This document shows, piece after piece, positions 28,426-39,192 of a stretch of DNA of 64,000 nt (its first letter is position 1; the number at the start of each line of letters is the position of its first letter). Below the pieces are notes generated by a model, which saw only the letters and a program-made list of their open reading frames with translations, did no database searches and was not told the DNA's origin. This DNA is from Tessaracoccus timonensis (lineage in GTDB: Bacteria > Actinomycetota > Actinomycetes > Propionibacteriales > Propionibacteriaceae). The translations under genes and the position numbers were made by a program. The DNA lies in the NCBI RefSeq assembly GCF_900343145.1, contig NZ_LT996886.1:2046001-2110000 (forward strand). The letters are read 5' to 3'.

Positions 28426-28512
28426 GCGAGTCAGCCTACTCCAGCATGAGCGAGGAAATGCTGTGGGAATTACACAGTCCGGTGCGCGCCTGGCTCCGGT
28501 AGGTTGCAGTCC

Positions 28513-29220
28513 ATGACTGATCGAGTGGTACTTGTCACCGGCGGATCCAAAGGGATCGGCCGCGCCATGGCCGAGACATTCCGCGACGCCGGCTACCGCG
28601 TCGCGGCCACCTACCGCAGCGGGGAGGTGCCCGACGGAGTGCTCGGCGTGCAGTGCGACATCACCAGCCAGAGCTCCGTCGATGAAGCGTTCGAACAGGT
28701 GGAACGTGAACTCGGGCCGGTGGAGGTGCTCGTCGCCAACGCAGGCATCACGAAGGACACGCTGCTCATGCGCATGTCCGACGACGACTGGCAGCAGGTG
28801 CTCGACACCAACCTCACCGGCACGTTCCGCGTCGTCAGGCGGGCATCGCGCCCGATGATGCGCGCTCGCTTCGGCCGGATGATCCTCATCTCGTCCGTGG
28901 TCGGCCTCATGGGCAACCCTGGCCAGGTGAACTACGCGTCCTCGAAAGCAGCCCTCGTCGGCATGGCGCGCAGCGTCACCCGTGAGCTCGGCGCCCGCGG
29001 GGTCACCTGCAACGTGATCGCGCCCGGATTCATCGACACCGACATGACGAAGGCTCTCGACCCCGACGTCATCAAAGGCTACGAGCAGCGCATTCCGGCG
29101 GGCCGACTGGGCAGTGTCGACGACGTTGCCGCCGCCGCGCTGTTCCTAGCGGGCGATGCGGCCGGTTACACCACTGGCGCCGTCATCCCCGTGGATGGCG
29201 GGCTAGGCATGGGTCATTGA
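28513..29220 (+). CDS. fabG: 3-oxoacyl-ACP reductase FabG (SDR)
   Basis: This 235-residue short-chain dehydrogenase has a cofactor site TGGSKGIGRAM, NAG in LVANAGITKDTLLMRM, and catalytic Ser (LISSVVG), Tyr and Lys (YASSKAALVGMARS). It reduces 3-oxoacyl-ACP with NADPH in fatty-acid elongation. It overlaps the preamble of fabI and forms the fabG-fabI pair seen as mabA-inhA in mycobacteria, which supports the assignment. Confidence 0.92.
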   Translation: MTDRVVLVTGGSKGIGRAMAETFRDAGYRVAATYRSGEVPDGVLGVQCDITSQSSVDEAFEQVERELGPVEVLVANAGITKDTLLMRMSDDDWQQVLDTNLTGTFRVVRRASRPMMRARFGRMILISSVVGLMGNPGQVNYASSKAALVGMARSVTRELGARGVTCNVIAPGFIDTDMTKALDPDVIKGYEQRIPAGRLGSVDDVAAAALFLAGDAAGYTTGAVIPVDGGLGMGH

Positions 29221-29237
29221 GAGATAAGGACGAACAC

Positions 29238-30011
29238 ATGGGCATCCTCGAAGGCAAGAACATTCTCGTCACGGGCGTGACGATCGACACATCGATTGCG
29301 TACGTCGTCGCCGACATCGCGCAGCAAGAAGGCGCCAACGTCGTCATCTCCGGCGCCGGGCGCGCGCTGCGGCTCGCCAACCGCGTCGCAAAACGGCTTG
29401 ACCCGGCACCGCCGGTGATCGAGCTCGACATCACCGTTGACGAGCACCTCACCGGGCTGCCGGCAGCACTCGAACCGCACTTCGGTGAGCGCCTCGACGG
29501 CGTCGTGCACTCCATCGCCTTCGCCAACCCCGAGACCGCGCTCGGCGGGCGATTTCTCGATACCGAATGGTCCGACGTCGCACAGGCGCTGCAGATTTCC
29601 GCGTACTCGTTGAAGTCCCTCGCCATGGCGGCCAAGCCGATGATGGCAGAAGGCGGATCTATCGTCGGGCTCACCTTCGACGCACAGGTGACGTGGCCGT
29701 CTTACGACTGGATGGGTGTGGCGAAGTCGGCGCTGGAGTCGACGTCGCGCTACCTCGCCCGCTACCTCGGACCCGACGGCATCCGCTCCAACATCGTCGC
29801 AGCCGGCCCCATCGACACCCTCGCGAAGCAGGCCATTCCCGGCGCGAGCGAGTTCAACGACATCTGGGGCACGCGCGCCCCGCTGGGTTGGGACGCCAAG
29901 GACGCCCGCCCGGCGGCGAAGGCCGTCGTCGCGCTGCTGTCTGACTGGTTCCCCGCCACGACGGGGGAGATGGTGCACGTCGACGGCGGTCTCCACTCGA
30001 CGGGGGCGTAG
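29238..30011 (+). CDS. fabI: Enoyl-ACP reductase FabI/InhA type
   Basis: This 257-residue SDR of the enoyl-reductase class has ILVTGVTIDTSIAYVVADIA at the cofactor site, VHSIAFANP, and the Y-x-x-M-x-x-x-K catalytic motif in YDWMGVAKSALES, nearly identical to InhA. It reduces trans-2-enoyl-ACP in type II fatty-acid synthesis. ATG 29238 is chosen, 17 bases after the fabG stop. It would be the target of InhA/FabI-type inhibitors. Confidence 0.95.
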   Translation: MGILEGKNILVTGVTIDTSIAYVVADIAQQEGANVVISGAGRALRLANRVAKRLDPAPPVIELDITVDEHLTGLPAALEPHFGERLDGVVHSIAFANPETALGGRFLDTEWSDVAQALQISAYSLKSLAMAAKPMMAEGGSIVGLTFDAQVTWPSYDWMGVAKSALESTSRYLARYLGPDGIRSNIVAAGPIDTLAKQAIPGASEFNDIWGTRAPLGWDAKDARPAAKAVVALLSDWFPATTGEMVHVDGGLHSTGA

Positions 30012-30077
30012 GCGCAACTAGGCGGCTCGCGGCTGGATCGCCCGCCGACGAAGCCCGCTGCAGGTAGGCTTGGGAAC

Positions 30078-30863
<786 letters not shown>

Positions 30864-30866
30864 CCA

Positions 30867-31355
30867 GTGGACTGGCTCGTCGCCTGGTTCCGAGACAACG
30901 GCTGGATCGGCTGGGGGCTACTGGCAATCGCCCTTGCCGCAGCTGAACTCCTCACCCTGGATCTCACACTCCTCATGCTCGCCGTGGGCGCCCTGGCGGC
31001 GGGGGCGACGTGGTTCGTCGCGCCCGGTTTGGTGTGGCTGCAGGCGCTCGTGGGTATCGGGGTAGCGGCGCTCACGCTGTGGCTGCTGCGCCCATCGCTG
31101 CTCGACCGCGTGCGGAACTCGCCCGGCTACCGTTCGTCGCTGGATCAACTCGTCGGCGCCACCGGCGTGGCGACGGCCGAGATCACCCCCGCGAGCGGCG
31201 AGGTGCGCGTCGACGGGCAGGTGTGGGAAGCCCGGCCCTACGACCCGCAGGCACGGATTCTCGAAGGCCAACACATCGAGGTGTTCGGCATGGACGGCAT
31301 CACGCTGCTCGTGTACCCATCCTCCTCACCCAAACCGCTCGACGCCGAATTCTAG
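30867..31355 (+). CDS. NfeD-like membrane protein
   Basis: This 162-residue protein has two to three helices in the first 75 residues (LLAIALAAAELLTLDLTLLM, GALAAGATWFVAPGLVWL, VGIGVAALTLWLL). A small OB-fold domain follows (about 90-155; GATGVATAEITPASGEVRVD, VFGMDGITLLVYP), the short-NfeD architecture. NfeD proteins work with SPFH/flotillin partners in membrane microdomains, and such a partner is encoded 13 bases downstream. GTG is the start. Confidence 0.9.
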   Translation: MDWLVAWFRDNGWIGWGLLAIALAAAELLTLDLTLLMLAVGALAAGATWFVAPGLVWLQALVGIGVAALTLWLLRPSLLDRVRNSPGYRSSLDQLVGATGVATAEITPASGEVRVDGQVWEARPYDPQARILEGQHIEVFGMDGITLLVYPSSSPKPLDAEF

Positions 31356-31368
31356 AAAGGAACGCGAC

Positions 31369-32631
31369 GTGGAATACGTCATTATTGCCCTCATCGCGCT
31401 GGTGATTCTATTGCTGGCGATGAGCCTGAAGATCGTCCGCCAGCAGCAGAAGGCCATCATCGAGCGCCTCGGCAAGATGCACAGAGTGCTGGATCCCGGC
31501 CCGCACCTGATCCTGCCGTTGTTCGACCGCGTGGCCTATCTGCTCGACATGCGCGAAGAGGTGGTCTCGTTCCCGCCGCAGGGCGTCATTACGGAAGACA
31601 ACCTCATGGTGTCGATCGACTCCGTGATCTACTTCCAGATCGTCGAACCCCGCCGAGCCGCCTACGAGGCGCAGAACTACCGCGCGGCCATCGAGCAACT
31701 CACTATGACCACGCTGCGTAACATCATCGGCGGCATGGATCTGGAGGCGACGCTCACCTCCCGCGAGGAGATCAACCAGCGGCTGCGTTCGGTACTTGAC
31801 GAAGCCACGGGCAAGTGGGGCATCAAGGTCAACCGCGTGGAGCTTCGCTCGATTGAGCCGCCGGCGACGATCCGCGACGCCATGGAGAAGGGTGCCCGCG
31901 CGGAGCGCGACAAGCGTGCGCAGATTCTGCTCGCCGAGGGCCAGCGTCAGTCGCAGGTGCTGAACGCGGGCGGTGACCGCGAGTCGGCCATTCTGCGGGC
32001 TCAAGGTGAGCGGGAAGCGGCGGTGCTGCGAGCGCAGGCCGAACGTCAGTCGGCGATGCTGCGGGCAGAAGGTGAGGCGCAGGCCATCACGACGGTGTTC
32101 CAGGCCATCCATGCCGGTCAGCCCGACCAGGCGCTCCTGGCCTACCAGTACATGCAGATGCTGCCGCAGCTCGCGCAGGGCGACTCCAACAAGGTGTGGG
32201 TCGTGCCCTCCGAACTTAACGACGCGTTGAAGGGCCTCGGTAACGCGATGGGTGGCGGCAACAGCAACGAGGGCCGCACCTACGTCTCTGAGGGGGCGAA
32301 GCAGTTCAAGGCCCCGGAGAAGATCGACGTCCAAGCAGAGATCGCCGAGCAGACAGAGAAGGACCGCAAAGCCTCGCAGGAGACTGTCCAGCAGGCCATC
32401 AACGAGGCCCAATCACTCGACAACCAGGGCGTTGCCAAGCGCAAGGCCACCGGCAAGCAGGCCCAGGAGCCGACCACTCAGCAGATCGCAGGGGCGCCGT
32501 CGCAGCTGGAGCCCCCGCAGCAGGCGTCGGCGCAGCAACAGGATCTGGCCCCGAAGACTTCTGCCGCGCAGCCGCAGGCCCCGTGGGCTGCGCCCCAGCC
32601 CCCGCAACAACACGGGGGACCCACCGCCTAG
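31369..32631 (+). CDS. SPFH/Band 7 (stomatin/QmcA-like) protein
   Basis: This 420-residue protein has one N-terminal membrane anchor (about 2-19, IIALIALVILLLAMSL). A Band 7 domain follows (about 20-190; QQQKAIIERLGKMHRVLDPG, VSFPPQGVITEDNLMVSIDS), then an Ala/Glu/Arg/Gln-rich coiled-coil repeat region (about 190-245; ERESA-type repeats) and a Pro/Gln-rich tail. It oligomerises into membrane microdomain scaffolds with NfeD. The tail is longer than in stomatins. Its stop shares a base with the GTG of the ketosynthase (TAGTG at 32629-32633), a coupling that links a membrane scaffold to a lipid-modifying pathway. Confidence 0.92.
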   Translation: MEYVIIALIALVILLLAMSLKIVRQQQKAIIERLGKMHRVLDPGPHLILPLFDRVAYLLDMREEVVSFPPQGVITEDNLMVSIDSVIYFQIVEPRRAAYEAQNYRAAIEQLTMTTLRNIIGGMDLEATLTSREEINQRLRSVLDEATGKWGIKVNRVELRSIEPPATIRDAMEKGARAERDKRAQILLAEGQRQSQVLNAGGDRESAILRAQGEREAAVLRAQAERQSAMLRAEGEAQAITTVFQAIHAGQPDQALLAYQYMQMLPQLAQGDSNKVWVVPSELNDALKGLGNAMGGGNSNEGRTYVSEGAKQFKAPEKIDVQAEIAEQTEKDRKASQETVQQAINEAQSLDNQGVAKRKATGKQAQEPTTQQIAGAPSQLEPPQQASAQQQDLAPKTSAAQPQAPWAAPQPPQQHGGPTA

Positions 32632-33626
32632 TGGGCATCACAGTGCTGGGCGCGGCCGAGGCCCTGCCCTCGAGAGTCGTGCCTTCTGCGGAGATTGAGG
32701 ACCGCATCCGTCAGGCCTCTGGATTTCGGCTGCCGCAGGGTGTCGTCGAACGGGTCACCGGTATCCGTACCCGACGCATGGTGGCTGAGGATGAGTACGC
32801 CTCGACGCTCGCCGCCCGCGCTGGGGAGGCAGCGCTGGAGGCAGCAGGCGTGGCGCCGTCGGAGGTGGACCTGCTGGTGTTCGCTTCCGCCTCACGAGAC
32901 TTCATCGAGCCCGCGACCGCGCACGTCGTCACGCACGAGCTGGGCATCCGCGCCCACGCCTTCGATGTGACCAACGCCTGCAACTCGTTCATCAACGGGA
33001 TCGAGATCGCGACGACACTGCTCGCCTCGGGCGCGTACTCGCGGGCGCTGGTGGTCACGGGGGAGACCCCGACGCGCTCGATCAGGTGGCAACTGGAATC
33101 GCTTCGGCAATTCATGACGCACTTCGCAGGCTTCACCTTCGGTGATGCTGGTGGGGCCGTGGTGCTGGGCCAAGGGCCGGGCCCAGGCCTCGGGCGGCCG
33201 ATGGCTGAGACCCGCTCCGAGCACTGGGACGTCGGCGGCATCTTCGGCGGCGGCTCCCGGCATCCATTCGATTTCGACAAGCTCTACTTCACAGGTGCCG
33301 GCACGGAGCTGCGGCTCGCATTCGAGAGCATGGGGCCCGATGTGATCGACGCCCTGCTGCACCGCGACGGTCGGCACGTGCAGGACTTCCGGCACATCTT
33401 CGTCCACCAGGTGACGGTGCCGTATGCCGAACGATTCTGTGATGTCGTGGGCGCGCGCCGCGAACAACTCGTGTGGACCGTACCGGAGCTGGGCAACATC
33501 GCCTCCGCGTCGTTGCCGATTCAGCTCTCGCGAGTCTGGGAGAACATCACGCCTGGCGAGCGCAGCCTGCTCGTTGGGCTGGGTGGTGGCATCTCTATCC
33601 AGGTCATGCCGTGGGAGTGTGGCTGA
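32631..33626 (+). CDS. KAS III / OleA-like beta-ketoacyl (thiolase-fold) synthase
   Basis: This 331-residue thiolase-fold condensing enzyme has the full catalytic triad: Cys in FDVTNACNSFINGIEIA, His in IFVHQVTVPY and Asn in ELGNIASASLPIQ, plus FGDAGGAVVLG and the terminal GLGGGIS. It is of the FabH/OleA group; the last three pathway genes (ligase, P450, epimerase) favour an OleA-like head-to-head acyl condensation over housekeeping FabH. GTG 32631 is the start, overlapping the SPFH stop. A glycosyltransferase starts one base after its stop. Confidence 0.85.
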   Translation: MGITVLGAAEALPSRVVPSAEIEDRIRQASGFRLPQGVVERVTGIRTRRMVAEDEYASTLAARAGEAALEAAGVAPSEVDLLVFASASRDFIEPATAHVVTHELGIRAHAFDVTNACNSFINGIEIATTLLASGAYSRALVVTGETPTRSIRWQLESLRQFMTHFAGFTFGDAGGAVVLGQGPGPGLGRPMAETRSEHWDVGGIFGGGSRHPFDFDKLYFTGAGTELRLAFESMGPDVIDALLHRDGRHVQDFRHIFVHQVTVPYAERFCDVVGARREQLVWTVPELGNIASASLPIQLSRVWENITPGERSLLVGLGGGISIQVMPWECG

Positions 33627-33627
33627 G

Positions 33628-34362
33628 ATGGCTCTGCCCGGCGTGTTGATCCCCGCATACAACGAGTCGCGCGGCATTGCGGCCACACTCGACGCGCTCG
33701 CCCGGCAGACGTGCCACGAGTTTCAGCTTGTGGTCGTCGATAACGCCTCCACCGACGACACCGCCGATGTCGTGCGGCGCTTCGCTGCGTCGGCACCGTT
33801 TCGAGTCACGGTCCTGACCGAGCCGGAGAAGGGAGTGGGCTGCGCCGCCGACACTGGTGCACGCTGGCTTATCTCCCGGGGCGCGCCGTGGTTTGCCCGC
33901 ACTGACGCCGACTGTCTGCCAAGACCTGACTGGTTTGCCCGCGCCCGGAAAGAGATCAAGGAGGCCGACCTGGTGTGCGGGGCAATCACCGCCCGTCGGG
34001 ATGAGAACGGGTTGCCGGCGCGGCTGCTGTTTGCTGCCCAGGTGCGGCTGGCGGCGTGGTTCGGACGGTGGCGCCCGGCCAATCGCGGGCCGCAGTTTCT
34101 CACCCCCTACCGCATGCACGCCGGCAACAACATGGCGGTGCGCGCCGAGACCTACCTCGCATCAGGTGGTTGGCTGCGGCGCGGCGCCCCCACGGACAGG
34201 CAGTTTCTCAATGCGATGCGTGCCACGACGCCGCGCATCGTGCAGTGCCGCGGCATGGTCAGTGAGAACTCGACACGGCGGTTGAAGGCGATGGGTGTCG
34301 TCCAGACGGCACGCTGGTACCTGGACAAGGGCGCCGGCGGCAAGGAGGAAGACCCGCGATGA
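33628..34362 (+). CDS. Family 2 glycosyltransferase
   Basis: This 244-residue GT-A enzyme has a nucleotide-sugar region VLIPAYNESRGIAATL and VVDNASTDDT, a metal-binding D-A-D in WFARTDADCLP and an acceptor-side segment YRMHAGNNMAVRAETY. No membrane helices are evident. It sits inside the ketosynthase-ligase-P450-epimerase operon (ATGA overlap with the ligase), so it probably glycosylates that pathway's lipid product or an intermediate. The sugar and acceptor are unknown. Confidence 0.85.
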   Translation: MALPGVLIPAYNESRGIAATLDALARQTCHEFQLVVVDNASTDDTADVVRRFAASAPFRVTVLTEPEKGVGCAADTGARWLISRGAPWFARTDADCLPRPDWFARARKEIKEADLVCGAITARRDENGLPARLLFAAQVRLAAWFGRWRPANRGPQFLTPYRMHAGNNMAVRAETYLASGGWLRRGAPTDRQFLNAMRATTPRIVQCRGMVSENSTRRLKAMGVVQTARWYLDKGAGGKEEDPR

Positions 34363-35768
34363 GTGAGCTGCTGCTGCAACGTGTGCTCGACGGGCTCGCC
34401 GATCGTCCCGACGACCCGGTCTTCTTGGGGATCGATCGGATCTCGCGCGCAGAGTTTGCCGACCTGGTGCGGACGTACGCTGGCGGGCTGCGGGGGCGCA
34501 GGGCCCGCAACTTCGTCCTCATGGTCCGCCCCGGCCCGGCCTCGTTCGCGCTCGCGCTCGCGGCGGTCGGCATGGGGATCCGTATCGACCTCATCAGTCC
34601 CAAAGGCGGCACCGAGCTGGTGCAGAGCAGGCTCGAGGAGACGATGCCGGACTTCGTCGTCGCTGAACCGGGGCTCAGATTCCTGCTCAAGGGGCCGGGC
34701 TGGCTGCGGCGCCCGGCAGGGCTGCCGGACTGGAGGATCTGGCCGGAGATCGTCTCCATCCACGATGTGGGTGGCGCGCAGGTGCGACGCTACGGGGTGG
34801 AGGAGGATCAGTCCGCGCTGACGGTGTTCACCTCCGGCACCACCGCGCATCCGGTGGGCGTTGTGCACACGGCCGGTTCGTTGTCGGCGGGCGCGGAGAT
34901 GGTCTCGACCCTCTTCGACGCCGATGCGCCGGGACCCGTCATGGCGGGCACCTTCTTTGCGATGCTGCCCGCCTATGCGCTCGGCAAACCTATCGTGTTG
35001 CCCGCACGCAATCCCCGACGCATCGCCGGGCAGTTGCGGAAATGGCGTCCATCCCACACCTATCTAACCCCGCCCCAATGGCGTGCCGCGCTGGCTGCCG
35101 GAGCCACGACGACCGGCCGCGTCTTCGCGGGCTCGGCCACAGTGACGGCCAACCTGCTCTCCCGGCTGCGCGCAGCCGGCGCCGACGAGGCATGGGGAGT
35201 GTACGCAATGACCGAGGTCTTCCCGGCGGCGGCGATCGAGTCGCGCGACAAACTCACCGACGACGCGCGCGGCGATCACGTGGGCCGGCTCTTCGACGGC
35301 GTGGACGCGCGCATTGAGGACGACGAGATCATCCTCTCCGGCCGATCGATGGCCCCGAGATGCATCGATGGGCAATGGCGCGACGACGTTGCCACCGGCG
35401 ACCTGGGCGTGCTCGAGGGCCGCGAGCTGTGGCTTCAGGGACGCCGCAAGGACATGATCCTTCGGGGCACGGACAACATCTACCCGGGCCTCTATGAGCC
35501 GAGGCTCACCGTCGAAGGGGTCGACGTCGCGTTGCTGCTCGGCGTACCCGCCGATGACGGCGACGAGGAGCTGGCATTGCTCGTGGAAGCGGGAGCCCGC
35601 TCGGACAAGCTGCGCGGGGTGCTCCAACGCAGGGCTCGGGAGCTGGGGCTCGTCGTCGATCACATCATCTTCGACACCGTGCCCACCTCCGGCCGCTCGA
35701 ACAAACCCGATCGTCAGGCAGCCCGGGCCCTGGTGCAGCAGCACATCGGGAAGGAGCAGGAGCGCTGA
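34359..35768 (+). CDS. OleC-like AMP-dependent acyl ligase
   Basis: This 469-residue ANL-superfamily enzyme has an ATP loop TVFTSGTTAHPVGVVHT, VYAMTEVFPAAAI, TGDLGVLEG and the hinge region QGRRKDMILRGTDNIYPGLY. The C-terminal Lys motif is SGRSNKPDRQAAR. The G-R-R-K-D and T-D-N-I-Y-P forms resemble OleC-type enzymes, which activate beta-hydroxy acids to beta-lactones, and fatty-acyl ligases. Placement between an OleA-like and an OleD-like gene supports OleC. A distinction from a plain acyl-CoA ligase needs structure or phylogeny. Confidence 0.8.
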   Translation: MSELLLQRVLDGLADRPDDPVFLGIDRISRAEFADLVRTYAGGLRGRRARNFVLMVRPGPASFALALAAVGMGIRIDLISPKGGTELVQSRLEETMPDFVVAEPGLRFLLKGPGWLRRPAGLPDWRIWPEIVSIHDVGGAQVRRYGVEEDQSALTVFTSGTTAHPVGVVHTAGSLSAGAEMVSTLFDADAPGPVMAGTFFAMLPAYALGKPIVLPARNPRRIAGQLRKWRPSHTYLTPPQWRAALAAGATTTGRVFAGSATVTANLLSRLRAAGADEAWGVYAMTEVFPAAAIESRDKLTDDARGDHVGRLFDGVDARIEDDEIILSGRSMAPRCIDGQWRDDVATGDLGVLEGRELWLQGRRKDMILRGTDNIYPGLYEPRLTVEGVDVALLLGVPADDGDEELALLVEAGARSDKLRGVLQRRARELGLVVDHIIFDTVPTSGRSNKPDRQAARALVQQHIGKEQER

Positions 35769-36796
35769 TGGGGAGGGCACGCATCCGCGACCGGCTCGTA
35801 CACGTGGCCGCTCATCCGCTGGTGTTCGCGGCGCTGGGCATCGGCAGGCACACGGGCCTGCCGGGACGACGGATCGTCGCCAGTGCTGAGGGTGTGCGTG
35901 AGGTGCTCACGAAGGTGCCGCTGGATCGCACCGACAGACACACCACCGGGGGGCTGGTGCGTGGCCAAGGCAGCGCAGGGGAGAGCTGGTTTGACGGGGA
36001 CGGGAGCGCGCACCGGCAGTCTCGCCGCGAGCTGGGGGCAGCGCTGACGGGTGCGGGCATCCGTCGGCTCGCCCGCCATTGGAAGCCCGTGCTGGATCAG
36101 TACGCGCAGGCGATGACCGCCGAGGCCGTCGACGTGGTGACGATGTCCCGCATCATGTCGGGGCTCGTCACACTGGACCTGCTCGGCATGACTGCGGATC
36201 GTGAGCGTGCCCTGGCCCTCACCGCCGCCACACGTGTCGTCGCGGCCATCTCCGTGCGCGCTCACCTGGCCGGCGACACGTCCCGCAACCTCACGGCACC
36301 CCTGGAGAAGGAGTTCCCCGGGCTGGGTCCGAGCGAGGTGATGCTGGCCGTCGCTGCCACCACGACCATGCTGAGTGCCATTCCCCGCGCGCTGGCATGG
36401 TGCGCCGATGATGGCCTCTTCCCGGACGCTCAGCGCGACCCGGAGGTGATGGCTGCCGAACTCATGCGCGTGATCGCACCGTCGCCACTGTTGCCGCGGA
36501 TCGTCGGGGATGACAGCCGGGTGGAGGGACGTCCGGTGCGCAGGGGGGAGCACCTGCTGCTGTACCTGCTGCCTGCGATTGCCCGACCGGAGCCGAGCGT
36601 GCAGCACCCGCAGCCACCTGCCCAGGCGCAATTGGCGTTCGGGGCCGGCTCCCACGCCTGCCCGGGCCGAGGGCTGGCGCTGGCGATGGTCGCGGACGCG
36701 CTGCGCACCTTCGCGCCCATCCGGCCCCGGGTCACGCGCGCAGTCCCCGACGTCGGTGCCGGGCTGCCGCAGTGGAGGTCGTTGTGGTTGCGCTGA
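35768..36796 (+). CDS. Cytochrome P450, unusually short
   Basis: This 342-residue protein has a heme-binding motif FGAGSHACPGRGLALAM (F-x-x-G-x-H-x-C-x-G), a K-helix E-L-M-R (E-x-x-R) in MAAELMRVIAPSPLL and an I-helix-like VAATTTMLSAIP. Bacterial P450s are usually near 400 residues; the shortening is mostly between the K-helix and the heme loop (around 255-280) and at the N-terminus. It overlaps the ligase (TGATG) and the epimerase by 13 bases. It probably hydroxylates the acyl product. No ferredoxin or reductase gene is adjacent. Confidence 0.85.
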   Translation: MGRARIRDRLVHVAAHPLVFAALGIGRHTGLPGRRIVASAEGVREVLTKVPLDRTDRHTTGGLVRGQGSAGESWFDGDGSAHRQSRRELGAALTGAGIRRLARHWKPVLDQYAQAMTAEAVDVVTMSRIMSGLVTLDLLGMTADRERALALTAATRVVAAISVRAHLAGDTSRNLTAPLEKEFPGLGPSEVMLAVAATTTMLSAIPRALAWCADDGLFPDAQRDPEVMAAELMRVIAPSPLLPRIVGDDSRVEGRPVRRGEHLLLYLLPAIARPEPSVQHPQPPAQAQLAFGAGSHACPGRGLALAMVADALRTFAPIRPRVTRAVPDVGAGLPQWRSLWLR

Positions 36797-37665
36797 CGGT
36801 GGCCGTGACGGGGGCGAGCGGGTTCGTCGGCAGGTACGTGGCGCAGGCGCTGCGTCAGAGGAAGCACCGTGTCGTCGCGCTGGGCAGGACTTCGGTGCCG
36901 GGAGAGTTTCGACGGTGGGACGCCGCCTGCGAGACCCCCGACCTCAGCGGGTGCGACGCGGTGGTGCACTGCGCGGCAGCTGTGGGGGATACGGGCCATG
37001 CGCAGCACTTCCGGGCGGTCAACGTCGAGGGCGCCAGCCGTCTGTTGGACGTGGTGGGGGAGCGCCCCGTGGTGTGGATGTCCAGTTCGTCTGTCTACTC
37101 CACACGCCAGCGGCGGCACCTAGCCGACGAGTCCCACCCGACGACCGAGGGCCACCTTGGCCACTACGGACGCACCAAGGCCATGGGCGAGATGATGGCC
37201 CTGGCACAAGGCGCTGTGGTGTTGCGCCCGACGGCGGTCTACGGGCTCGACGAACGTCATCTGGTGCCGAGGCTGCGGCGCCTGGTCAGGGGGCACACGC
37301 TGCTGCTGCCTGGCCCTGACGTGAAGCTGAGCCTCACCGACGTCGATGGGCTCGCCCGCGCTGCTGTGCAGGCACTCACGTGGGCACCCGGGGCATACAA
37401 CATCGCCGATCCCGAGCCGTATTCGCGCGACGACGTGCTCACCTCGGTGTTGGGGCAGGTGACAGGCCGGGCGCTGAGGCCGCTCAGGCTTCCACTTTCG
37501 CCGGTGAAACTCTTCGGCCCACTGCTGCCGGGTATCAACCGCTATTCGCTGGATCTCATTACCCACGAGCACACCTACGACGTGCGCAAGGCCCTCGCCG
37601 CCGGCTGGGATGCGGGCGAGATGCGGGTGCAGGAGCTGGACTGGGCGCGGGCCGAGCCGCGCTGA
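36784..37665 (+). CDS. OleD-like NAD(P)-dependent epimerase/dehydratase-family reductase
   Basis: This extended SDR of about 293 residues has a cofactor motif TGASGFVGRYVAQAL, WMSSSSVYS (Ser) and Y-x-x-x-K in YGRTKAMGEMM, then RPTAVYG and YNIADPEPYS. It fits 3-beta-HSD/OleD-type enzymes that reduce beta-keto acids, as well as sugar epimerases. Two GTGs (36772 and 36784) are possible; the second gives the usual short lead to the Rossmann fold. It is the last gene of the set and is followed by a strong hairpin. Confidence 0.8.
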   Translation: MVALTVAVTGASGFVGRYVAQALRQRKHRVVALGRTSVPGEFRRWDAACETPDLSGCDAVVHCAAAVGDTGHAQHFRAVNVEGASRLLDVVGERPVVWMSSSSVYSTRQRRHLADESHPTTEGHLGHYGRTKAMGEMMALAQGAVVLRPTAVYGLDERHLVPRLRRLVRGHTLLLPGPDVKLSLTDVDGLARAAVQALTWAPGAYNIADPEPYSRDDVLTSVLGQVTGRALRPLRLPLSPVKLFGPLLPGINRYSLDLITHEHTYDVRKALAAGWDAGEMRVQELDWARAEPR

Positions 37666-37779
37666 GCGTCGCCAACGTGTCGGCTCAGACGGGGTATCGT
37701 CGCTGTGCCGGGCCGCCAGTTCGGCCTGCACGACTCAGGCCGAAACCCAGCCGTACGCGGAATAAGGAGCACCGTAGAT

Positions 37780-37825
37780 AAGGAATGCTGGAACCCACCA
37801 ATTTTGGTGGGTTCCAGCATTCCTT
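37780..37825. terminator. 22-bp perfect hairpin between convergent genes
   Basis: AAGGAATGCTGGAACCCACC (from 37780, arm to 37801) is perfectly complementary to 37804-37825, with a two-base loop. Placed between the end of the ole-like operon and the convergent lipoprotein gene, it can terminate transcription from both sides. Confidence 0.75.
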
Positions 37826-37842
37826 ACGGGTGTTAGCCGCCA

Positions 37843-39192
37843 CTACTTCCACTTCGAGACATGCGTCGTGATGTAGTCGGGTTCCTCGAGTTGGCCCCAC
37901 GCGAGCCGTGTCTTTGAGCACATGACGGACGAGTAAGCGTGTGGCGCCTTCATCGCACTGAGAGTGCCCGTCGCGGTGTCAAAAATGAACACCTTGTCTC
38001 CCTCACCACCCATAGCCGTGGGGATGAAGGCCACCTTCCCGGAGCACACAGCCAGTTCCCCGACTTCTGTGTTGAGTGGGAGAGGAATGCGGGCGATCGG
38101 TGCGCCGTTTGCGCGAACGATGATGATGTTGTCTTGGATGAGTGCAGCCACTACGTCCCCGCCGGAGGCCAACTCGGACACGCCCACCCCTTCTTCCTCT
38201 TCCTCTGCCTCGGTAGTGGAGTAACGAATCACGTTGGTGACGCGGCCGGATCCGTCAATGCGCACCACGCCTACTTCCTTATAGTTTGTTCCGTTGTGTG
38301 ATTCAGGGGTGTGCTCAAGCTGAACCGCGACGATGCCGCCATCAATAGGAGAGACGTAGTAGCCGGAGGCAAGCATCTCCTTGGGCTCTCCTCTCGCTGG
38401 ATCGGCTGCCAAGACCCGGACACCGAATGTCCCATCTTGTTGCTGCGTGGCTGTCCACCACCAAACCAGTCCAGCTGAGAGTTTGGGAACCGGATCTCCA
38501 CCCAACAGCGGTACTTCGGATGCGCCGGAGGAAAGCTGATCCTCCGCAGCCGCGACGAGTCGTGGCGTGCCACCGGATATTCGTTGCGAGAAGAGACGCC
38601 AGTTAGATTGGCTCAAATCGGTGGAGCTCGTCTCCATCCATACAGCCCAGTTGTCGTCGATATCGCCAGCGTACGTCTGCCGAGCTAAGCCATCACTACG
38701 AATATGTGCTGTGCTGTCGAACAGCTTGGAGGATTGGTTGTCGTAAAGAAGGCCGACCCGTCCGCTCTTTACTATCTCCTCGGAATCTCTGTTCTCGCTG
38801 GGATCGAAGCTCACCAACGCGGCATTGGACGCGAGGGCGAGCACAATGCGATCAGGGTGTCCTTCGGGAGGCCGGCCAAGTTTGACGATCTCCGGCAGCG
38901 TTATCGGGCTTGCAGACGACAGGTCTACGGTAGGAAACGAAATCGACGTTCCATGTGCATCATAGACCGTCACGTCGTGGTCATTTGTGCCCTGACTCTG
39001 AGGTGTTGATGCGGTCTTGGAAGCAGTCGGAGCTGAGCTGGATGACGGTTGTGGGCTGCCTTTGGCGGAGTGGTGAGTGCCCTGGGGTTCGGGGCTCGGT
39101 TGAGGTGAGACCGAACAACCTTGCAACAAACACAATGAGACAAGCGCAAGAGTTGTGGCGGCCTGGATCCGGGTGAATTTTGCAGGCACCAT
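37843..39192 (-). CDS. Lipoprotein with a predicted beta-propeller-like domain
   Basis: This 449-residue protein has a lipoprotein signal ATTLALVSLCLLQGC, with the lipobox L-L-Q-G-C giving a lipidated Cys near residue 26. A disordered Ser/Pro/Thr/Gln linker to about residue 70 follows. The rest is a series of beta blade-like segments (RIVLALASNAALVSFD, VLAADPARGEPKEML, KVFIFDTATGTLSAMKAP) of the kind found in surface WD/TolB-like domains. The function is unknown. The codon bias is weaker than in the flanking core genes. Confidence 0.7.
   Translation of the reverse strand: MVPAKFTRIQAATTLALVSLCLLQGCSVSPQPSPEPQGTHHSAKGSPQPSSSSAPTASKTASTPQSQGTNDHDVTVYDAHGTSISFPTVDLSSASPITLPEIVKLGRPPEGHPDRIVLALASNAALVSFDPSENRDSEEIVKSGRVGLLYDNQSSKLFDSTAHIRSDGLARQTYAGDIDDNWAVWMETSSTDLSQSNWRLFSQRISGGTPRLVAAAEDQLSSGASEVPLLGGDPVPKLSAGLVWWWTATQQQDGTFGVRVLAADPARGEPKEMLASGYYVSPIDGGIVAVQLEHTPESHNGTNYKEVGVVRIDGSGRVTNVIRYSTTEAEEEEEGVGVSELASGGDVVAALIQDNIIIVRANGAPIARIPLPLNTEVGELAVCSGKVAFIPTAMGGEGDKVFIFDTATGTLSAMKAPHAYSSVMCSKTRLAWGQLEEPDYITTHVSKWK

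Follow-up and report, generated by a model that had tools for sequence, protein, structure and literature searches.

The subject of this analysis is an operon in a stretch of 64,000 nucleotides from Tessaracoccus timonensis (positions 2,046,001 to 2,110,000 of NZ_LT996886.1, a single contig of 2,759,000 bases), which is referred to as the window. At 32631-37665, all on the (+) strand, follow genes for a thiolase-fold ketosynthase (KS), a family 2 glycosyltransferase (GT), an adenylating ligase of the ANL type, a short cytochrome P450 and an extended short-chain dehydrogenase (SDR). The reading we favour, held at about even confidence, is that of an ole-like five-enzyme operon without OleB, which would lead to an activated or lactonised, glycosylated lipid and, because OleB is absent, not to an olefin. 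It is based on the catalytic triad and the Glu-Pro motif of the KS, on the OleD models heading the matches of the SDR, on a ligase region (A4) shortened as in OleC, on the joint occurrence of the five genes in other genomes and the lack of OleB matches there, on a fusion of GT and ligase, on the decay of solitary ligases, and on a published gene set for which the same prediction was made (PMC7064751).

The KS gene (32631..33626, 331 aa) was taken to start with the GTG at 32631, in a frame readable from 32583, and this start overlaps the stop codon of the upstream SPFH gene. After a gap of 1 nt, it is followed by the GT gene (33628..34362, 244 aa, RTDAD motif). The genes of the ligase (34359..35768, 469 aa), the P450 (35768..36796, 342 aa) and the SDR (36772..37665) each overlap the preceding one. 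Curated Pfam cut-offs were exceeded for ACP_syn_III, ACP_syn_III_C, Glycos_transf_2 (86.5 bits), AMP-binding, p450 (narrowly, with 26.8 bits against a cut-off of 22.8) and Epimerase. A first-pass annotation, made from the sequence alone, had described five overlapping or touching genes, a KS with a Cys-His-Asn triad and a P450 with the loop FGAGSHACPG. Coordinates and junctions bear out the first point, and triad and loop are both present.

The distribution of the gene set was followed with a three-row KS profile, which at E<=1e-55 matched 5 of the 391 genomes sampled from the order and 33 of the 394 from the class. Forty-three loci (L; genomes are given as G) were scanned with five protein profiles; they comprised the window, the surroundings of KS matches, three congener loci, Nocardioides rubriscoriae, and G088 and G059 from a family search. 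Loci with a KS above 370 bits were defined as cassette loci, which applied to 27 of the 43, namely 23 from the class sample (about 6% of its 394 genomes, in several families) as well as G039, G106, G325 and N. rubriscoriae. All five genes occur together in 21 of these 27 loci, which goes beyond chance adjacency, counted over loci that were selected by the presence of the KS and do not represent independent cases (L078 and L079 hardly differ, and several loci come from a common genus). No SDR was detected in L123, L134 and L144, and no cassette P450 or SDR in L125 and L126; L132 has neither GT nor ligase, and its weak SDR match (150 bits) lies about 3 kb upstream. Within the genus, the ligase was present in 5 of 39 genomes, the fifth copy being that of G369 (L213). 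The cassette KS was found in G000 only, among those genus members that the order sample includes, which are fewer than the 39. A scan of contigs with one protein matched N. rubriscoriae only; as a search among close relatives, it is uninformative on rarity.

Two cassette types, each with 12 members, were distinguished by their P450. Type A (L078, L118, L127-L135, L144) has an ordinary I-helix motif, TGTET, and the gene order KS-GT-P450-ligase in the 11 of 12 loci that have a ligase. Type B (the window, L080, L114-L117, L119-L124) has VAATTT or VAAVNTT-like I-helix motifs, HACPG or HTCPG at the heme cysteine, and the order KS-GT-ligase-P450.

The triad of the KS is formed by the Cys of NACNS, the His of HQV and the Asn of GN. 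Its best match among solved structures was chain 3s21 (E 1e-31), named 3-oxoacyl-ACP synthase III, which we take to be OleA of Xanthomonas campestris. The OleA-type Glu-Pro reads FIEP in the window, and EP stands ahead of the active-site region in all 27 cassette KSs. The motif was not found in L001, the only other PF08541 match of the genome and presumed to be its FabH. According to PMC7064751, Glu117 is the general base of the head-to-head condensation by OleA. An identity as ordinary FabH was judged unlikely on the grounds of the Glu-Pro motif and the top solved match; the KS tree, which contains one presumed FabH, is a weak test of this. In the tree, the cassette KSs grouped with eight actinobacterial ole KSs (support 91/85), and 17 other KSs with the OleA motif joined the single, long-branched presumed FabH. 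Type B was recovered (94/94), but type A not as a single clade. The KSs of four actinobacterial loci with an OleC-type ligase and an OleB-like match (L136, L139, L143, L147) branched among those of type A, which hints at an exchange of KSs between the two pathways.

The SDR contains the motifs TGASGFVG and YxxxK, and its top NCBIfam matches were two OleD models (71 and 70 bits, under the cut-off of 580). For OleB, a slice of the OleBC-type frame L164 served as query against six genomes. The T. timonensis genome, G039 and G174 yielded nothing at E<=0.01; the controls G018 and G629 were matched at E<1e-90, and G749 weakly (1.4e-7). By tblastn, the query matched none of the 27 cassette loci versus 9 of 13 comparison loci, with a match of just 48 residues in L136. 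The comparison loci with no match (L137, L138, L145, L146) have the KS alone, with neither ligase nor SDR. The OleC loci L150-L179, taken with a flank of only 1.5 kb, were matched in 25 of 30 cases, the query's own locus counted. The search for oleB, which the first-pass annotation had proposed as a check, agrees with the absence that the annotation had claimed, and the annotation's outline of an OleA-like, OleB-less pathway with a GT and a P450 is supported. With 11 PF00561 matches in the genome, an unrelated hydrolase could take the role of OleB. G629 holds both an OleBC-like frame (G629:C4) and the SDR-less cassette L134, so that both can coexist in one genome.

Adenylation motifs found in the ligase are A3, A5, A7, A8 and A10 (FTSGTT, YAMTE, TGD, GRRKDM..NIYPG, SGRSNKPDR). 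Its relationships were studied in a tree of 87 sequences, consisting of 22 cassette ligases, 2 orphan ligases from congeners, 30 OleC or OleBC proteins and 33 ordinary ANL enzymes (3 from the genome itself and 30 from two others). The cassette ligases L079, L116, L130 and L133, the orphan L077, the genome's own L044, L047 and L048, and duplicate OleC loci stand outside it. The tree is unrooted and stems from a quick search, with support given by the Shimodaira–Hasegawa-like approximate likelihood ratio test (SH-aLRT) and no bootstrap; the label OleC refers to NF045786 scores, none of which is above the cut-off, and to an OleB-like neighbour at most loci. Cassette and orphan ligases formed a clade of their own (SH-aLRT 100), which adjoins the OleC clade (99) and is not nested in it, and the 33 ordinary ANL enzymes (99) lay across a 99% branch from both. 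The A4 region measures 12 residues in all cassette (22/22), orphan (2/2) and OleC (30/30) sequences versus 18-20 in the 33 ANL enzymes. In ordinary CoA ligases, this part adjoins the thioester site. The hinge Asp (KDM) is kept in 22/22 cassette ligases and 23/33 ANL enzymes, but in 0/30 OleC sequences, and the A10 lysine is found in 22/22 cassette, 28/30 OleC and 26/33 ANL rows. The shortening of A4 and the loss of the A8 hinge Asp were derived as marks of OleC in this analysis; no published criterion was encountered.

Provided that the root lies among the diverse ANL enzymes, the cassette ligases may be regarded as sister to OleC, with the hinge of CoA ligases retained. We reject an ordinary acyl-CoA ligase because of the tree and the length of A4, despite the CoA-ligase-like hinge, and OleC proper because of the tree and the hinge motif. 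The phylogeny of the ligase, also proposed in the first-pass annotation, therefore separates it from the 33 ordinary ANL enzymes, but does not uphold the label OleC, which by these sequence features should not be used. Consequently, the statement that OleC makes a beta-lactone cannot be transferred to this enzyme as such.

Orphan ligase-like genes were found in the same slot, ahead of BASS, in the congeners G112 (L075:7050-8438), G105 (L076:8344-9666) and G054 (L077:8713-9744). The slot follows SPFH, or the ABC gene in G105, and KS, GT, P450 and SDR are missing there. TSGTT is lost in all three orphans and the A10 lysine in both that were aligned. Their frames are open with a high GC content at third codon positions, and the pairwise ratio of nonsynonymous to synonymous substitution rates is about 0.5-0.6 versus 0.2-0.3 for SPFH. 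The constraint appears relaxed, not clearly absent, as might be expected of a relic or of a gene heading to another role.

The GT is present in 26 of the 27 cassette loci; its matches among solved structures pointed to neither a donor nor an acceptor. In L125 (10789-13143, 784 aa) and L126 (6740-9145, 801 aa), GT and ligase form one open frame with Glycos_transf_2 and AMP-binding in a single chain, which ties both enzymes to one pathway. Both genomes belong to one genus (g138), and the fusion may represent a single event. No cassette P450 or SDR was found in the fetched stretches around these two loci; that of L125 contains a classical SDR, an acyl-CoA dehydrogenase and a zinc-type dehydrogenase. 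A second GT occurs in L080 (N. rubriscoriae), L114 and L115. In L080, a BrkB/YihY-type membrane protein and, behind it, the second GT lie inside the cassette (L080:9254-10819).

The heme Cys and ExxR are conserved in all 24 aligned P450 sequences (L079 is outside the alignment). The acid of the I-helix is present in 12/12 type-A proteins versus 0/12 of type B, where the Thr is kept. The matched stretch spans 343-372 residues in 11 of 12 type-B proteins (495 in L117, with an in-frame insert) versus 382-419 in type A. Only type A has a block of 16 residues, as well as 5 residues immediately ahead of the I-helix motif. The best solved matches of the window P450 were bacterial enzymes of the CYP105/107 kind, with which it shares the Cys ligand and ExxR and from which it differs in its length of 342 aa, the missing I-helix acid and the missing type-A block. 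A search for the P450 in 147 family genomes matched 32, and apart from the gene itself all matches were weak (best 42 bits). GT helpers of the EryCII type have lost the heme. Such a role is unlikely for this P450, in which the heme Cys is kept.

The operon resembles the OleABCD or OleA-OleBC-OleD olefin pathway in its OleA-like KS, OleD-like SDR and OleC-related ligase, and differs from it in the lack of an OleB match, the separate clade of the ligase and the additional GT and P450. Similarities also exist to the pathways of lipstatin (Lst) and nocardiolactone (Nlt). These follow OleACD logic with no OleB (PMC7064751 for lipstatin and Nocardia); the cassette differs in having a single KS instead of the LstA/LstB pair (same source), no nonribosomal peptide synthetase, and a GT and a P450 among its five genes. 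The closest counterpart is described by Smith et al. (2020, mBio; PMC7064751): Actinoplanes atraurantiacus has OleA, a glycosyltransferase, OleC, a P450 and OleD, and no oleB, for which condensation, reduction, hydroxylation, glycosylation and lactone closure to a hydroxylated, glycosylated beta-lactone were predicted. Judged by function from this description, the five functions, their listed order and the lack of oleB agree with the window; the organism is another one, and the ligase is called OleC there, but is distinct from the OleC clade here. By gene context, the Actinoplanes KS is the nearest assayed enzyme, and it hydrolysed p-nitrophenyl hexanoate in cells (PMC7064751). The gene set is already described in kind and uncharacterised, and its product is still a prediction. 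The first-pass annotation had recognised no described product. This stands insofar as neither an isolated product nor another paper on the set was among the matches listed (open-licence papers, by titles and the starts of abstracts), but the set had been reported and its product predicted in 2020 (PMC7064751, as above). The available part of PMC7158056 mentions neither P450 nor glycosyl.

In the proposed pathway, the KS would join two acyl-CoAs head to head by a non-decarboxylative Claisen condensation to a 2-alkyl-3-keto acid, which the SDR would reduce to the 2-alkyl-3-hydroxy acid. The ligase would adenylate the carboxylate and most likely close the beta-lactone, the P450 would oxidise a chain, and the GT would add a sugar. 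We infer all of these reactions, their order, the substrates, the sugar and the lactone from the gene set, the catalytic residues, the co-conservation, the lack of an OleB match and the position of the ligase beside OleC. A glycosylated, oxidised 2-alkyl-3-hydroxy-acid is the most likely product. It is probably a beta-lactone, a step that is less secure than the first-pass annotation had assumed.

Several observations weigh against this reading. KS, ligase and SDR all score far under the NCBIfam cut-offs. The ligase reached 80 bits with PRK09274 and 59 with a long-chain CoA ligase model, but only 46.8 with the OleC model NF045786 (cut-off 900, which is passed in 0 of 296 sampled class genomes), and CoA synthetases rank first among its solved-structure matches. 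Its hinge (KDM...NIYP) is that of CoA ligases, with the Asp that OleC has lost, so that a thioester or an ester may be formed and not a lactone. L125 and L126 are without a cassette P450 or SDR in their surroundings, so that glycosylation there cannot require a hydroxyl group introduced by the cassette P450. In type B, the oxidation would have to proceed with no I-helix acid. Scarce purified Actinoplanes OleA gave no Claisen product from C8-C16 acyl-CoAs (PMC7064751).

Part of this evidence would suit an open-chain glycolipid similar to mycolic acids, a serious competitor to which we assign a distinctly lower probability than to the reading favoured above. Condensation and reduction would be the same, but the ligase would activate the branched 3-hydroxy acid as an acyl-AMP or acyl-CoA for transfer to a sugar or another acceptor, or the 3-hydroxyl group would be glycosylated first, and no beta-lactone would arise. 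Such a route would fit the retained hinge and N-I-Y-P motif of the ligase, the acyl-CoA synthetases as its best PDB matches, the near-constant presence of the GT, and the two genomes in which a KS is accompanied by fused GT and ligase, with no cassette P450 and SDR. On the other hand, A4 is shortened as in OleC in every cassette ligase aligned, and the tree places the ligase beside OleC.

CYP152 enzymes of the OleT type decarboxylate free acids oxidatively. If the cassette P450 acted likewise in place of OleB, the free acid would be converted to an olefin or a ketone independently of OleB. The lost I-helix acid of type B, a gap in its presumed F-G region and the lack of an OleB-like match in the cassette loci would be compatible with this. 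However, type-A cassettes have an ordinary I-helix, no CYP152 was noticed among the best 60 of 443 PDB profile matches, and GT and ligase would be left with no role, which makes this explanation very improbable. That an ordinary FabH, an acyl-CoA ligase and genes for sugar modification are neighbours by chance and share no pathway might find support in how poorly KS, ligase and SDR score with named NCBIfam models, but is in practice refuted by the co-conservation of the five genes in several families, the GT-ligase fusion, the decay of the ligase where its partners are absent and the Glu-Pro of the KS.

A further proposal, which goes beyond the OleB-less pathway favoured here and is rather doubtful, is that the ligase represents an enzyme type of its own, which survives as an intermediate between acyl-CoA ligases, whose hinge it keeps, and beta-lactone synthetases, whose shortened A4 gate it has. 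Acting jointly with the GT, its fusion partner in some genomes, it would yield an undescribed class of glycosylated head-to-head lipids. The oxidation in the lineage of the window, carried out by a shortened P450 with no proton-delivery acid, would then take an unusual course, perhaps one driven by peroxide or assisted by the substrate. The ligase clade offers a natural test of how a beta-lactone synthetase arises from a CoA ligase. Likewise, P450s with and without the I-helix acid can be compared within related pathways in the two natural lineages. The compact five-gene cassette is suited to heterologous expression.

Downstream of the SDR gene, a perfect inverted repeat of 23 nt with a 2-nt loop (37779..37826) possibly marks the end of operon transcription; it was not among the results of a terminator scan. 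The operon is adjoined by an open reading frame of 449 aa (37843-39192, (-) strand) in a stretch of lower GC content, the N-terminus of which reads as lipoprotein-like. It had no Pfam match and no tblastn match in the congener slots L075-L077. Upstream, co-directional genes for FabG, FabI/InhA, an ABC ATPase, NfeD and SPFH (28504..32631, (+) strand) also occur in congeners that have no cassette (in G105 without NfeD and SPFH) and are therefore regarded as genomic context outside the pathway.

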